Shown: piece after piece, positions 60,427 through 64,000 of the stretch
How the letters are laid out: every line of letters starts with the position of its first letter
How positions within the stretch are numbered: position 1 is the stretch's first letter
Source of the DNA: Herbidospora cretacea
GTDB taxonomy: Bacteria; Actinomycetota; Actinomycetes; Streptosporangiales; Streptosporangiaceae
Length of the DNA: 64,000 bases
Assembly (NCBI RefSeq): GCF_001570605.1
Contig: NZ_BBXG01000001.1
Location: forward strand, 558,001-622,000
Direction: 5' to 3'
The notes under the pieces: model-generated
The model's input: the letters and a program-made list of their open reading frames with translations, nothing else
Databases searched by the model: none
Told to the model about the DNA's origin: nothing
Translations under genes and position numbers: made by a program

Positions 60427-61443
60427 TCAGCCGCCGAACAGGTCGAGCTGCTCCGGTTCCGGAGCCCGCGCCGGCGGGACGGGCTGCGGCCGCGTCGCGC
60501 GCTCCCTGATGCCGTGTCTGCGGGCGAGCTCCGCCACCTGGGCGGTGATCCTCTGCTGGTAGGCCTTCGGCGCGTAGGCCCCGCGCCCGTAGAGCTCCCG
60601 GTAGCGCGGCACCAGCCTCGGGTGTTCGCGCTCCAGCCACTGGAGCCACCACTCGCGCGCGCCGGTGCGCAGGTGCAGCACGAGCGGGCTCAGCCCGGTC
60701 GCGCCCGCCTCGGCGATCTCCTTGACGGTCGCCTCCAGCTGGGCGGGGGAGTCGGTGAGGTAGGGCAGGATCGGCGCCATCAGCACCGAACACGGGACGC
60801 CGGCCTCGTTGAGCGCCGCGACCGCGCCCAGGCGGGCGCGCGGGCCGGGAGTGCCGGGCTCGGTGGCCCGCCAGGCGGCCGGATGGGTCGTGCCGATCGA
60901 CATGGCGGTGGAGACGCGGGTGCGCGCGGCGGCCTCGGCGAGCAGGTCGAGGTCGCGGAGGATGAGCGTCCCCTTGGTCAGGATGGAGAAGGGGTTGGCG
61001 AACTCGGTGAGGACCCGGATGATGCCCGGCATCAGCCGATAGCGCCCCTCGCACCGCTGGTAGGGGTCGACGTTGGTGCCCATCGCGATGGGCTCGCCCC
61101 GCCAGCGCGGCCCGGCGAGCTCCCGGCGCAGCAGGTCGGCCGCGTTGGTCTTCACGACGATCTTCGTGTCGAAGTCGTGGCCGGCGTCGAGGTCGAGGTA
61201 GGTGTGGGTGTTGCGGGCGAAGCAGTAGACGCAGGCGTGGGTGCAGCCCCGATAGGGGTTGAGGGTCCATTCGAAGGGGACCCGGCTGGGACCGGGGACG
61301 CGGTTGACGATGCTCCGGGCCTGGATCTCGTAGAAGGTGACGCCGCGGAACTCCGGGGTGTCGATGGTCCGGACGACCGCACCCCTGGTGATCAGGGCGT
61401 TGTCGGGCCGGTCGGGGATGAGTTGCAGGTTGTCCCAGCGCAT
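60427..61443 (-). CDS. Rv2578c family radical SAM protein
   Basis: A 338-residue radical SAM enzyme with the cluster motif CTHACVYC (C67, C71, C74), NPYRGC before it and the typical tail EPEQLDLFGG. The mycobacterial homologue Rv2578c belongs to the DNA-damage (LexA) regulon; its reaction is not known to me, but it resembles SPL-like photolyase-type radical SAM proteins (TNVDPYQRCEGRYRLM). A near-perfect SOS box lies just upstream of the start, matching that regulation. Confidence 0.88.
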   Translation of the reverse strand: MRWDNLQLIPDRPDNALITRGAVVRTIDTPEFRGVTFYEIQARSIVNRVPGPSRVPFEWTLNPYRGCTHACVYCFARNTHTYLDLDAGHDFDTKIVVKTNAADLLRRELAGPRWRGEPIAMGTNVDPYQRCEGRYRLMPGIIRVLTEFANPFSILTKGTLILRDLDLLAEAAARTRVSTAMSIGTTHPAAWRATEPGTPGPRARLGAVAALNEAGVPCSVLMAPILPYLTDSPAQLEATVKEIAEAGATGLSPLVLHLRTGAREWWLQWLEREHPRLVPRYRELYGRGAYAPKAYQQRITAQVAELARRHGIRERATRPQPVPPARAPEPEQLDLFGG

Positions 61444-61451
61444 CCCATGAT

Positions 61452-61467
61452 TGGAACATCTGTTCGA
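61452..61467 (-). promoter_or_regulatory. LexA (SOS) box upstream of the radical SAM gene
   Basis: TGGAACATCTGTTCGA matches the actinobacterial SOS consensus TCGAAC-N4-GTTCGA at 11 of 12 positions. It is 8 bases upstream of the ATG at 61443, where it would block the promoter or early transcript of the radical SAM gene; the divergent DUF3040 gene could also be affected. Confidence 0.7.
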
Positions 61468-61576
61468 TCATGATCGCAACGGAAAGCGCGGGCAAATCAG
61501 GCCCCACCAAACGGCTAACGATCTTCTTTAGGGGGAACGACCTCCGCACACACCTTGCATCCCTGGGAGGTGCGCC

Positions 61577-61843
61577 ATGTCCTGGTCGCAAGACGAGGAA
61601 CGGATGCTGGCGATGATCGAGCGGCACCTCACCGACGAGGATCCGAGGCTGGCCGCCCGTTTAGAGTCGTTCAACGAGCGGGTGGTGCGGGGCGAGCGCA
61701 ATCGCCGCCGCACCGACGACAAGAGACGCCGGTGGCGGCGGTCGACGGTGGTGATCGCGGTGAGCTGGTTGCTGATCGCGACGTTGATCGCGACGCTGCT
61801 GGTGATGGCCTTCCACAACGAAGCCGCGGCGGTGCCCTTCTAG
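61577..61843 (+). CDS. DUF3040 family small membrane protein
   Basis: An 88-residue protein with the DUF3040 N terminus MSWSQDEERMLAMIERHLTD followed by DEDPRLAARLESFN, a basic stretch (RNRRRTDDKRRRWRR) and one membrane helix 'STVVIAVSWLLIATLIATLL'. The function of this common actinobacterial family is unknown. Preceded by GGGAGG. Confidence 0.85.
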   Translation: MSWSQDEERMLAMIERHLTDEDPRLAARLESFNERVVRGERNRRRTDDKRRRWRRSTVVIAVSWLLIATLIATLLVMAFHNEAAAVPF

Positions 61844-61866
61844 TTCGAGCCGTCCGTGGTCTCTTT

Positions 61867-61882
61867 TCTCCGTTACGGCTCC
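61867..61882 (+). repeat. Dispersed 16-nt intergenic repeat, copy 3
   Basis: Identical core TCTCCGTTACGGCTCC, starting 24 bases after the DUF3040 stop. The rest of the gap up to 61984 shows only low-complexity C/G-rich DNA. Confidence 0.6.
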
Positions 61883-61984
61883 CGCACGCCCGCCGCCGCC
61901 CGCCGCCCCCGGTCCCCGCCGCACCCGGCGCCGGCCGCCCGCTCCCGCCCGCGCGCCATGACGGACAGGTGAGACGCCCCGTCG

Positions 61985-62026
61985 TTCTTAAATGCTTTGT
62001 CCGGGCCGCGATCCCGTGCGTAGGGT
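61985..62026 (+). promoter_or_regulatory. WhiB7-like promoter of the erm leader
   Basis: An AT-rich block TTCTTAAAT (61985-61993) ends three bases before a -35-like TTGTCC (61997-62002), with an 18-base spacer to TAGGGT (62021-62026). An AT-rich run just upstream of the -35 is the known signature of WhiB7-dependent promoters, which drive antibiotic-resistance genes including erm in mycobacteria. The predicted transcript start is at or within a base of the leader ATG. Confidence 0.5.
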
Positions 62027-62033
62027 GCAGCGC

Positions 62034-62099
62034 ATGGCTTCCCATTTCTGCTGCCCCGTTTTCATCCGCATCCGTCACAGCCGGGCTCTGGCCCGCTAG
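62034..62099 (+). CDS. Erm leader peptide (regulatory)
   Basis: A 21-codon frame starting MASHFCCPVF, then residues 11-17 IRIRHSR, then ALAR and a TAG stop. Arg12-Ile13-Arg14 is an Arg-x-Arg motif of the type that arrests macrolide- and ketolide-bound ribosomes in known erm leaders. The transcript probably starts at the ATG, so translation would be leaderless. It is followed by stem-loops and the erm gene 103 bases downstream. Too short for standard gene finders. Confidence 0.65.
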   Translation: MASHFCCPVFIRIRHSRALAR

Positions 62100-62196
62100 C
62101 GGACGCGATCATTTGCTGAACTAAAGGGCAGTTTCGCGTCCCCGGCGCGCCCAGGGCCCTTCGAGACCCGATTCCTCTCGAAGACCCTGAAAGGGC
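62082..62196 (+). promoter_or_regulatory. Erm attenuator stem-loops
   Basis: Four pairings. CGGGC/GCCCG with loop TCTG (62082-62095) covers the last leader codons. GGACGCG/CGCGTCC (62101-62107 with 62135-62141). CTTCGAG/CTCGAAG (62159-62165 with 62177-62183), extendable by AGGG/CCCT. Alternatively GCCCTT (62156-62161) pairs with AAGGGC (62191-62196) and hides the AAGGG ribosome binding site of erm. Alternative folds around the ribosome binding site fit translational attenuation. Confidence 0.55.
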
Positions 62197-62202
62197 ATTG
62201 CT

Positions 62203-63027
62203 GTGGCGCAGAATTTCGCGCACGGAAACTATTCGCACACCCAGAAGAAGGCCAGGAACAGCGGCGGGGGTCGCACGCCCGTCGACGGCGCGCGGCGGGA
62301 CCTGTCGCAGAACTTCCTGGCCGACCGGCACGCGGTCGAGCTGATGGTGAAGGCCGCCGCCCCGGAAGGGCTCGTCCTGGAGCCCGGTGCGGGCGAGGGG
62401 GCGCTCACTTTCGCGCTGGCCGAGGTGGCCACGCGGGTGATCGCCTACGAGATCGATCCCCGGTTGGCGGGGCGGCTCGCCGCCCGTACGAAGGACAACG
62501 AGAACATCGACGTGGTCAGAGGTGATTTCACGCGTGCGCGGATACCACGGGAACCGTTCGCGGTGGTGGGGAACATTCCATACTCGGTCACTTCGAAGAT
62601 GGTCGACTGGTGTCTACGGGCGCCGTCTCTATCGTCGGCGACACTTCTGACCCAGCGGGAGTACGCCCGCAAGCGTTCCGGCGACTACGGCCGGTGGAGC
62701 CTGGTCACGGTGGAGTCGTGGCCGTGGTTCGACTGGCGGCTGGGGCAGACCGTCTTCCGGGAGTCGTTCCGGCCGGTGCCCTCGGTCGACTCGGCGATCC
62801 TGCGGATCGACCGGCGGCCGGAGCCGCTGGTGTCCGACCGCCGGTCGTACCGTGAGCTGGTCGCGCTCGGGTTCGGCGGGGCCGGGGGTTCGGTCCGGGC
62901 GTCGCTGAGGTCCCGTCACGACGGGGTGGACGCGGCCCTGCGGGCGGCGGGCGTGCCCTACGACGCGGTGGTGGGACACGTCCACCCCGACCAGTGGGTG
63001 ACCCTGTGGCGGCGCCTGATCAGGTGA
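62203..63027 (+). CDS. erm: 23S rRNA (adenine-N6)-dimethyltransferase, Erm family
   Basis: A 274-residue methyltransferase. It would N6-methylate A2058 of 23S rRNA and so block macrolide, lincosamide and streptogramin B binding. DLSQNFLADRHAV (33-45), SAM motif EPGAGEGALT (60-69), acidic YEIDP, and the catalytic NIPY motif at 124-127 (NIPYSVTSK) favour Erm over the housekeeping KsgA (usually NLPY). GTG start with GAAAGGG 7 bases upstream. It has a leader peptide and a stem-loop region upstream. Its end overlaps the convergent monooxygenase by 8 bases. Confidence 0.88.
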   Translation: MAQNFAHGNYSHTQKKARNSGGGRTPVDGARRDLSQNFLADRHAVELMVKAAAPEGLVLEPGAGEGALTFALAEVATRVIAYEIDPRLAGRLAARTKDNENIDVVRGDFTRARIPREPFAVVGNIPYSVTSKMVDWCLRAPSLSSATLLTQREYARKRSGDYGRWSLVTVESWPWFDWRLGQTVFRESFRPVPSVDSAILRIDRRPEPLVSDRRSYRELVALGFGGAGGSVRASLRSRHDGVDAALRAAGVPYDAVVGHVHPDQWVTLWRRLIR

Positions 63028-64000
63028 GCCAGATCGCGGCGAGCCGGCGGGCCGCCAAGGGCGGTGGCGTGGCGCGGAGCATCGCGTCGCGCAGCCAGGC
63101 CCCCGGCCCGGTCAGCGTGGTCAGCCGTGACTGGCGGCTGGAGGCGAGCATGATCCGGTTGGCCCGGGGACGCCGTTCGGCGTCGTAGCGGCGCAGCCGT
63201 TCGGCCGCCTCCTCCGGTCCGGCGCCCTTCAGGTGCCGGACCAGCGCGGCGGCGTCCTCGAAGGCCTGGCTGGCTCCTTGCCCCAGGTCGGGGGTCATGC
63301 CGTGGGCGGCGTCGCCGAGCAGCGCGACGGTCCCCTTCGTGTACGAGTCCAGCGGCCGCGCCAGCCGGCTGATCGGGTCGACGTGGATGTCGGGCCCTGC
63401 GGTCGCCCGCAGAAGGGCGGGCACGGCCGGGTGCCAGTCGGCCATGAGCCTGGCCATCCCTTCCCTGGCCTCCTCCGCCGCCGGGACGGTCGCGGGCATG
63501 GCCGCGTCGGTGAACCAGTAGAGGCGGTCGGCCCCGAGCGGGAACAGGCCGAACATGGCGCCGCTGTGGCGGTCGATCAGGATCGCGGTGAGCAGGTCGT
63601 CGACGCCGGGCGGACGGGGCAGGGTGCCGCGCAGGTCCAGGCGGCCGGTGCGCCGGGTTCCCGGGTGGCCGGGGAAGAGGCGGGCGCGCAGGCGGCTGTT
63701 GATCCCGTCGGCCACCACGACCGCGTCGGCGGTGACCGACGCGAGGTCGTCGACGGGCGTGCCGGTGCGGACGCGGTCGAGGGGCAGCCGGGCGCGCAGC
63801 GCGCGGTGCAGGACGGCGCGGTCGACGACGACGGTCGGGCCGTACCGTTCCTGCGCCTTGACGGCGTCGGTGACCAGGAGCGGCCGCCCCTTCCGGTCGC
63901 GGAGACCGCCCTGCGCGGTCGGCATGACGTGTTCGCGGAGAGGGCCGGCCAGCCCGAGCGTGTCGAGGGCGGCCAGGCCGTTGGGCATGACGACCACCCC
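63020..64000 (-). CDS. FAD-dependent monooxygenase (N terminus beyond the window)
   Basis: The 326 visible residues are the C-terminal part of a PHBH-fold flavin hydroxylase; the GxGxxG FAD-binding start lies outside the window. Seen are ADAVVVADGINSRLRARLF (the DG motif region), GTVALLGDAAHGMTPDLGQG (GD motif, FAD ribityl binding) and a C-terminal helical region with LRRYDAERRPRANRIM. Substrate unknown. It converges on erm with an 8-base overlap. Confidence 0.85.
   Translation of the reverse strand, partial: GVVVMPNGLAALDTLGLAGPLREHVMPTAQGGLRDRKGRPLLVTDAVKAQERYGPTVVVDRAVLHRALRARLPLDRVRTGTPVDDLASVTADAVVVADGINSRLRARLFPGHPGTRRTGRLDLRGTLPRPPGVDDLLTAILIDRHSGAMFGLFPLGADRLYWFTDAAMPATVPAAEEAREGMARLMADWHPAVPALLRATAGPDIHVDPISRLARPLDSYTKGTVALLGDAAHGMTPDLGQGASQAFEDAAALVRHLKGAGPEEAAERLRRYDAERRPRANRIMLASSRQSRLTTLTGPGAWLRDAMLRATPPPLAARRLAAIWLT

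Follow-up and report, generated by a model that had tools for sequence, protein, structure and literature searches.

A predicted two-layer macrolide sensor, with a WhiB7-type promoter and a putatively leaderless Arg-x-Arg leader, upstream of erm in Herbidospora cretacea

Results

The erm locus and its leader frame

The subject of this analysis is an erm locus in a 64,000-nucleotide (nt) stretch of the Herbidospora cretacea genome (RefSeq assembly GCF_001570605.1, contig NZ_BBXG01000001.1, positions 558,001 to 622,000, forward strand), which is referred to as the window. The erm gene starts with GTG and scores 323.3 bits against the ErmE/H/O/R model NF000337, above the family cut-off of 320. 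Upstream of it, a short open reading frame (ORF) runs on the + strand from an ATG at 62034–62036 to a TAG at 62097–62099 and encodes the peptide MASHFCCPVFIRIRHSRALAR*. The ORF translation agrees with the original prediction of a 21-codon frame with Arg-Ile-Arg at residues 12 to 14. Judged by its sequence and its relatives, this frame is a real leader that carries an Arg-x-Arg (R-x-R) motif of the R/K-x-R/K class. The promoter, leader and gene are arranged as follows; type-A loci are the 42 related loci described in the next section.

61988–61993, + strand: AT-rich box TTAAAT of the WhiB7/WblC type, 3 base pairs (bp) 5´ of the -35 element
61997–62002, + strand: -35 element TTGTCC with an 18-bp spacer, similar to the element and spacer of most type-A loci
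62021–62026, + strand: -10 element TAGGGT, 7 nt 5´ of the leader ATG, a gap that is kept in type-A loci
62034–62099, + strand: putatively leaderless leader ORF
62067–62075, + strand: Arg12-Ile13-Arg14, candidate arrest codons (x across the type-A loci is Ile in 32, Leu in 6, Met in 3 and Thr in 1)
62189–62195, + strand: erm ribosome-binding site GAAAGGG, assigned by sequence
62203–63027, + strand: erm, 23S rRNA (A2058) methyltransferase gene of the ErmE/H/O/R type

The leader peptide is conserved in close relatives

When named genomes were searched for Erm proteins, 42 loci were obtained, and the window and two further loci (L009 and L010) were considered besides. The type-A set comprises 39 loci from the search together with the window, L009 and L010. 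These loci belong to Herbidospora, Nonomuraea, [Actinomadura] parvosata, Spongiactinospora, Microtetraspora, one Actinoplanes and one Streptomyces. A putatively leaderless R-x-R leader is present in 42 of the 44 close loci with intact upstream sequence, so the frame singled out by the original prediction is conserved, and the lack of conservation that would have refuted that prediction is not seen. Three loci from the search lie outside the set: L071 is truncated before the leader, L064 has no such leader, and L072 has a differing leaderless ORF located 391 nt before erm. These counts carry a caveat: the loci are related, and both the R-x-R motif (as R-[ILMTV]-R) and a -10 box 6–8 nt from the ATG were selection criteria of the set, which no entered locus failed.

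The distance from the ATG to the motif takes six values in the type-A loci (7, 8, 9, 10, 11 or 12 whole codons), the middle residue varies, and the codon for the first Arg (Arg12 in the window) is CGC, CGT, CGG or AGG. The frame-keeping lengths, the varying x and the four Arg codons together suggest that the peptide, and not RNA alone, is kept. They also bear on the proposal that the region is conserved purely as an RNA structure and the frame is untranslated. The strong conservation of the structure is in keeping with that proposal, which is extremely improbable given the whole-codon lengths and the choice of Arg codons.

Three further features of these leaders were observed. The N-terminal part (62034–62066 in the window) is rich in cysteine, which accounts for 74 of the 375 residues before R-x-R across the set; a Cys lies five residues ahead of the first Arg in 34 of 42 leaders. 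In L043 (leader at 2336–2410), a 9-nt in-frame insertion after R-I-R creates a second motif, R-G-R, that lies closer to helix A (described below). Nonomuraea ceibae carries two erm genes: L054 has such a leader, and its paralog L064, the locus named above, does not.

A WhiB7-type promoter is predicted to place the start at the leader ATG

In Streptomyces coelicolor, the WblC/WhiB7 promoter rule given in PMC7157823 is GAAAWY, 3 bp, TKGMNN, 16–19 bp and TANNNT, and most transcripts start 7 or 8 bp past the -10 element. The window promoter follows this plan with deviations. TTAAAT matches GAAAWY at four of six positions, TTGTCC departs from TKGMNN at the M, and the spacer and TANNNT fit. Among the 42 type-A loci, 39 combine a TTG-type -35 element with an 18-bp spacer; the spacer is 17 bp in L065, and L009 and L010 have no match. 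The gap from the -10 element to the ATG is 7 nt in 39 loci, 6 nt in two (L047 and L009) and 8 nt in one (L070). Given this spacing and the WblC start rule, the transcript is expected to begin at, or about one base from, the leader ATG, as the original prediction had proposed from promoter geometry. A -10 box 7 nt before the ATG leaves no space for a ribosome-binding site, and neither the window nor the type-A relatives have a Shine-Dalgarno (SD) site of their own before the leader. The only SD-like letters upstream of the window ATG are the AGGG inside the -10 box. They were rejected as a conserved ribosome-binding site, because relatives carry TACAGT, TAGCGT or TACTGT at this position. The leader thus appears to be translated from a leaderless mRNA whose start is deduced from the promoter.

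The genome contains six WhiB matches, one of which (L210) has GVWGG followed by RGRPRK. The RGRPRK hook is the mark of WhiB7, and the genome encodes this regulator; a family search of three WhiB proteins against NCBIfam assigned no family. The whiB7 gene of this genome has its own promoter with the same plan as that before erm (GAAAAT, 3 bp, TTGCCC, 18 bp and TAGGGT). As a positive control, a similar promoter rule found one site before whiB7 in 29 of 30 whiB7 loci. The sequence before erm fits the WhiB7/WblC plan and is a putative WhiB7-dependent promoter, in agreement with the WhiB7-like promoter of the original prediction. A start codon 7 nt past the whiB7 -10 element occurs only in seven Herbidospora-group genomes and in one other locus (L240), which suggests that leaderlessness is a trait of the erm leaders and not of the promoter type.

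In all seven Herbidospora-group genomes (L212–L218), the ATG 7 nt past the whiB7 -10 element opens a frame that begins MRVG[QHR]YCPAPR. It ends after 11 codons in the genome of the window (L213, G000:C22:16457-16717, minus strand), extends past 40 residues in the other six, and has no counterpart in the remaining 23 whiB7 loci that were scanned.

One alternative holds that WhiB7-driven transcription alone matters and that the leader and structure are remnants or serve mRNA stability. The promoter plan is consistent with it, as is the rise in mRNA of SCO6089, an S. coelicolor gene of the erm(O) type, caused by WblC (PMC7157823). A remnant would not be expected to keep R-x-R with varying codons or a frame across several lengths, nor to display the covariation and codon choice described below, and this alternative is very unlikely.

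Leader codons 14–16 can pair with the bases around the erm start

None of 200 dinucleotide shuffles folds as well as the stretch from 62034 to 62215 (z = -3.3). The resting fold considered here comprises a lock helix that joins the leader to the erm start, and four further helices, listed here together with the helix proposed earlier:

62073–62081, + strand: lock helix, 5´ strand, leader codons 14–16 (from pairing counts and the fold test)
62083–62091, + strand: helix A, 5´ strand GGGCTCTGG, within the leader (97.3% of cells paired; one pair changed on both sides)
62100–62106, + strand: helix S, 5´ strand CGGACGC, immediately after the stop codon
62136–62142, + strand: helix S, 3´ strand GCGTCCC (fold helix 3)
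62151–62159, + strand: helix A, 3´ strand CCAGGGCCC (fold helix 2)
62156–62161, + strand: GCCCTT of the helix proposed earlier, with the partner AAGGGC at 62191–62196
62161–62181, + strand: hairpin TCGAGA...TCTCGA (fold helix 4; one pair changed on both sides)
62185–62187, + strand: CCC, predicted to pair with the erm SD site (off; fold helix 5) or with AGGG of the helix A 3´ strand (on)
62200–62208, + strand: lock helix, 3´ strand GCTGTGGCG around the erm GTG start (from pairing counts and the fold test)

Codons 14–16, which are the second Arg of R-x-R and the two codons that follow, were compared with the nine bases at the erm start, with G-U pairs counted. All nine pairs can form in 30 of the 42 type-A loci, eight in 8 loci and seven in 4. 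The mean of 8.62 pairs exceeds the value at every offset of 1–6 nt in either direction (at most 5.86). It also exceeds the mean under random synonymous codons (6.27; the highest of 500 set means is 6.86). Two leader bases lie opposite U. In 82 of 84 cells they are A or G, and a quick Erm tree implies at least 13 changes at one of them and 14 at the other, compared with 0–6 at the other sites tested. The retention of A or G despite these many changes suggests that replacements between His and Arg and between Ser and Gly can occur as long as the helix is preserved.

The fold was examined in an alignment of 54 sequences, 42 of type A and 12 related. The five-helix off fold is paired in 95.6% of 1788 cells, compared with at most 54.6% when the partners are slid. 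Seven pairs are changed on both sides, and 28 such cells were counted compared with 5.3 in shuffles, none of 500 of which reaches this value. The covariation lies mostly in helix S, in which five of seven pairs have changed on both sides. In the whole leader mRNA, the 16-nt window around the erm start pairs mainly with codons 14–16 (3.71 expected pairs), the CCC (1.97) and codons 1–11 (1.84), and helix A reaches 6.21 expected pairs.

The original prediction had placed the lock elsewhere, in a helix between GCCCTT and AAGGGC that covers the erm ribosome-binding site. An arrest leader could be real and yet act through this helix, with the arrest codons taking no part in the lock. The helix can pair in 96.5% of the cells of the alignment, and that part of the claim stands. 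Its role as the erm lock lacks comparable support, because neither the helix nor the complete structure first proposed (95.7% paired, outer helix 96.5%) shows covariation above shuffles. The pairing of the start window with CCAGGGCCC increases as the first part of the leader is removed, from 0.35 expected pairs in the whole mRNA to 1.58 with a stalled ribosome and 2.49 with the ribosome at the stop codon. This rise speaks for the helix; it also means that the pairing grows, and does not fall, under a stalled ribosome, and in the whole mRNA the value of 0.35 stands against 3.71 for codons 14–16. A lock formed by GCCCTT and AAGGGC is rather unlikely. The first interpretation is thus partly supported, with the helix of leader codons and start codon fitting better than GCCCTT/AAGGGC.

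The best-supported lock on sequence grounds is the pairing of codons 14–16 with the erm GTG start, inside the covarying five-helix fold. Some of the comparative evidence weighs against it: the lock helix is paired in 93.6% of cells, shows changes in just one of its two strands, and cannot form its fourth pair in 16 of the 54 sequences. The lack of two-sided changes is attributed to the erm start, which barely varies.

Searches for known elements gave no alternative assignment. No family of Rfam 15 reached its gathering score in 61800–62400. The single match up to E = 1, Deinococcus_Y_RNA, scored 28.3 bits against a gathering score of 80 and was dismissed as chance.

A ribosome at the motif is predicted to ease the opening of the erm start

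For the 42 type-A loci, the energetic cost of opening the erm start window was computed with a ribosome placed at each leader codon and with 40 nt of erm included. Opening costs 13.3 kcal/mol in the whole mRNA and the same with the ribosome five codons before the middle residue of R-x-R. The cost falls to 9.0–9.95 kcal/mol from three codons before to one codon after this residue, rises to 11.6 two codons after, and then remains at about 12. In the window's own locus, the cost is 9.8 kcal/mol for the whole mRNA, 12.0–12.6 just before the motif, 5.0 at the motif and 7.0 two codons on. The mean gain at R-x-R is 3.66 kcal/mol, with a re-closing of 2.5 by positions +3/+5; shuffles yield 0.26 and -0.19. 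Synonymous recoding from R-x-R to the end of the leader leaves a gain of 0.73, and recoding of codons 14–16 alone leaves 1.57. A shift of the footprint edge between +13 and +18 alters the gain little (3.45–4.14).

Several outcomes of the same calculation weigh against a switch of this kind. The real gain of the respective locus is reached by 57 of 336 shuffles of the stretch from the leader to the ribosome-binding site, 16 of which also re-close equally. A 6-nt window lowers the gain to 2.03, and the gain depends on the length of erm included (4.8, 7.0, 3.6, 3.7, 2.5, 1.3, 1.0 and 2.1 at 10, 20, 30, 40, 50, 60, 80 and 120 nt, respectively), with the position specificity lost at 60 and 80 nt. 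In the stalled state, the start window pairs with the erm coding sequence (6.75 expected pairs, up from 0.95 in the whole mRNA), and its pairing with CCAGGGCCC increases as well (values above). The proposed on-helix CCAGGG:CCC grows only from 0.52 to 0.92, and opening the start still costs 9.6 kcal/mol with the ribosome stalled.

Related leaders occur beyond the close relatives and are of several types

With the erm family model at E ≤ 1e-45, matches were found in 93 of 394 sampled genomes of the class and in 226 of 341 genomes of the family; 70 and 224 of these, respectively, lie above the curated cut-off. Of 160 non-redundant regions upstream of erm (146,130 nt in total), 89 matched a strict pattern of the promoter and a leaderless R-x-R ORF, and 71 did not. 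The pattern had no match in 454,146 nt of control sequence on both strands, which consisted of the window outside the locus and the flanks of L031–L072. The arrangement before erm is therefore beyond chance. A looser scan, requiring a TKG -35 element, TANNNT and a leaderless ORF with [RK]-x-[RK], matched 140 of 206 oriented erm upstream regions, some of which are redundant. The other 66 count against the sensor proposed here; some of them (L009, L010 and L014, for example) show a leader by eye and fail the -35 or -10 rule.

A covariance model was built from the 54 aligned sequences, which match it by construction. Among 338 genomes of the family, it gave a single match in each of 99, which represent 16 of 68 genera. 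Among 388 sampled genomes of the class, 13 had a single match; 11 of these belong to the same family and 2 to another. Among 42 match loci inspected, translation revealed an Erm motif downstream in 38 and a leaderless R-x-R leader in 37; the remaining four adjoin erm matches by coordinates.

Leaderless R-x-R leaders of other sequence types precede erm in further families. Several types were distinguished by our own rough manual sorting, with some labels changed by hand, and they include short leaders ending in RIRRS* and leaders containing SVRMRRGPGALTGPG in family f20. The gain at the motif (shuffles in parentheses) is 2.6 (0.1) kcal/mol for type B, 1.8 (0.3) for C, 1.5 (-0.1) for F and 0.5 (-0.2) for A2. 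Types D, E and G, with 0.4 (0.1), 0.1 (-0.5) and -0.7 (-0.1), have no predicted opening, which is a further point against a general switch. Single loci scatter widely, from -1.9 to 8.7 within type B. In this model, a translational switch is supported for type A and, on average, for types B and C, but lacks support in types D, E and G. Translational opening as a rule for all leaderless erm leaders was rejected, being unsupported in D (16 loci), E (6) and G (6) and not clearly supported in A2 (4).

The type E loci have GCCATGGCC or GCCATGGGC at the erm start and CGTCGTGGC or a similar sequence as the leader strand, with seven or eight of nine pairs. Both sides of this lock differ from type A, yet no opening is predicted there. 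Type E leaders resemble the ErmSV leader.

Five type B leaders (L155, L115, L114, L073 and L103) are short, with R-x-R close to the stop codon. Their R-x-R codons can pair with the bases after the stop codon, which can themselves pair with a strand that possibly covers the erm SD site, and the predicted opening at the motif ranges from 0.0 (L103) to 7.9 kcal/mol (L155). Visual inspection of type A loci and of some type B loci also showed a pairing of the R-I-R codons CGCATCCGC with the post-stop bases GCGGACGCG. It was not counted in type A, because GCGTCC is the partner of the post-stop strand both in the minimum free energy fold of the window's leader mRNA and in the alignment.

Loci of family f21 (L146–L149, L151 and L152) have leaderless R-x-R leaders and Erm scores below the general cut-off; in L151, the leader VANGNYMLGIASMRLRRFTTA precedes a short erm. 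Translational opening is not predicted on average in these loci. In type D (L159, L160, L162, L164–L168 and others), the distance from the leaderless R-x-R leader to erm is mostly 302–529 nt and the leaders often end in a sequence similar to RLRERRPALD. No translational opening is predicted in type D, which may be under transcriptional control.

Transcriptional control through premature termination or RNA polymerase pausing, as reported for several ABC-F genes and whiB7, was also considered for the locus in the window, with the leader frame being real. Transcriptional attenuation by upstream ORFs (uORFs) is described for Streptomyces and mycobacteria in PMC12421871 and PMC4128351, and the absence of a predicted opening in types D, E and G points in this direction. 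The conserved structure, in contrast, reaches into the erm start codon, and no terminator-like site (a hairpin with a T run) was found on the + strand of 61000–64000, for which reason intrinsic termination was discarded. Transcriptional control of this locus is unlikely.

Discussion

A model for the locus

The locus is probably a two-layer macrolide sensor, in which a WhiB7 promoter supplies the mRNA and a leaderless arrest leader unlocks the erm start. WhiB7, induced by translation stress, would activate the promoter, and transcription would begin at the leader ATG or roughly one base ahead of it. In the resting mRNA, codons 14–16 would pair with the nine bases over the erm GTG, with helices A and S inside and CCC on the erm SD site, such that erm is hardly translated; the fold and its covariation are computed, and the repression is presumed. 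If the leader behaves as ErmDL does (PMC8298421), a drug-bound ribosome may then arrest while Ile13 occupies the P site and Arg14 the A site. Such a ribosome would cover codons 14–17, to approximately 62085, and would thereby mask all of the lock strand together with the beginning of helix A. Removal of the lock strand and weakening of helix A would lower the cost of opening the erm start, and CCAGGG may capture CCC, which is only weakly favored in the folds. A ribosome that reads beyond the motif would allow the fold to close again, and methylation of A2058 by Erm would end the signal. The first two steps, leaderless WhiB7-driven transcription and the lock, draw on comparative evidence; we infer arrest and induction.

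We tentatively suggest, at close to even confidence, that these leaders represent a distinct class of drug-sensing leaders in Actinomycetes: leaderless and WhiB7-controlled, with arrest codons that are the antisense of the erm start and a lock that is lifted by the stalled ribosome. A leader that starts at the first base, if true, would tie drug sensing to the initiation of leaderless mRNA, and whether sensing stays open when normal initiation is stressed becomes testable. As a lock, the helix between arrest codons and start codon would be simple and would make precise predictions. If WhiB7 is backed by a second layer, this would matter for when soil actinomycetes, a likely reservoir of erm, turn resistance on. 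The search rule of a promoter and a leaderless R-x-R ORF offers a quick finder for leaders that SD-based searches may miss.

Comparison with known systems

Leaderless mRNA is common in Actinobacteria, and the ermE transcript is leaderless. Streptomyces ermSF/tlrA, ermSV and lrm and Corynebacterium ermX are actinobacterial erm genes with leader peptides. Known members of the R/K-x-R/K erm leaders have their own SD site, which is not needed for arrest itself, and to our knowledge all known arrest leaders have their own ribosome-binding site. Among the open-licence literature matches listed, no description of a leaderless arrest leader before erm was found, with older work on Streptomyces erm leaders outside that scope.

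The closest likeness is to ErmDL of ermD and the R/K-x-R/K class, as described in PMC8298421. The ribosome stalled on ErmDL holds Leu7 in its P site and Arg8 in its A site; telithromycin arrest needs both Arg residues, and erythromycin arrest survives most Arg replacements. Both systems carry R-x-R early in a short leader that precedes erm. A stall that leaves x in the P site and Arg in the A site, and RNA refolding that opens erm, are predicted for the window by likeness to ErmDL. The actinobacterial leader differs in having no ribosome-binding site and apparently no 5´ untranslated region, in the position of the first Arg (codon 12 here, 8–13 in relatives and 6 in ErmDL), and in arrest codons that themselves pair with the erm start codon. 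In the ermC attenuator, as summarized in PMC6685928, a leader stall switches alternative helices and frees the erm ribosome-binding site, as is predicted here. Its arrest motif belongs to a different class, and in the window the proposed lock strand is the arrest site itself.

The uORFC-6-1 motif before hflX in Bacillales (PMC8632094) also places a conserved R-L-R uORF in a covarying RNA structure; it is likened by description, and it concerns another gene in another phylum. With the WhiB7/WblC regulon promoters (PMC7157823), the window shares the AT-rich box 3 bp from the -35 element, the 18-bp spacer, TANNNT and an expected start 7–8 nt past the -10 element, and departs from the consensus in TTAAAT and TTGTCC. 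The WhiB7-controlled erm(37) is called an exception to the leader-controlled erm genes in PMC4128351; here, in contrast, a WhiB7-type promoter and a leader occur together.

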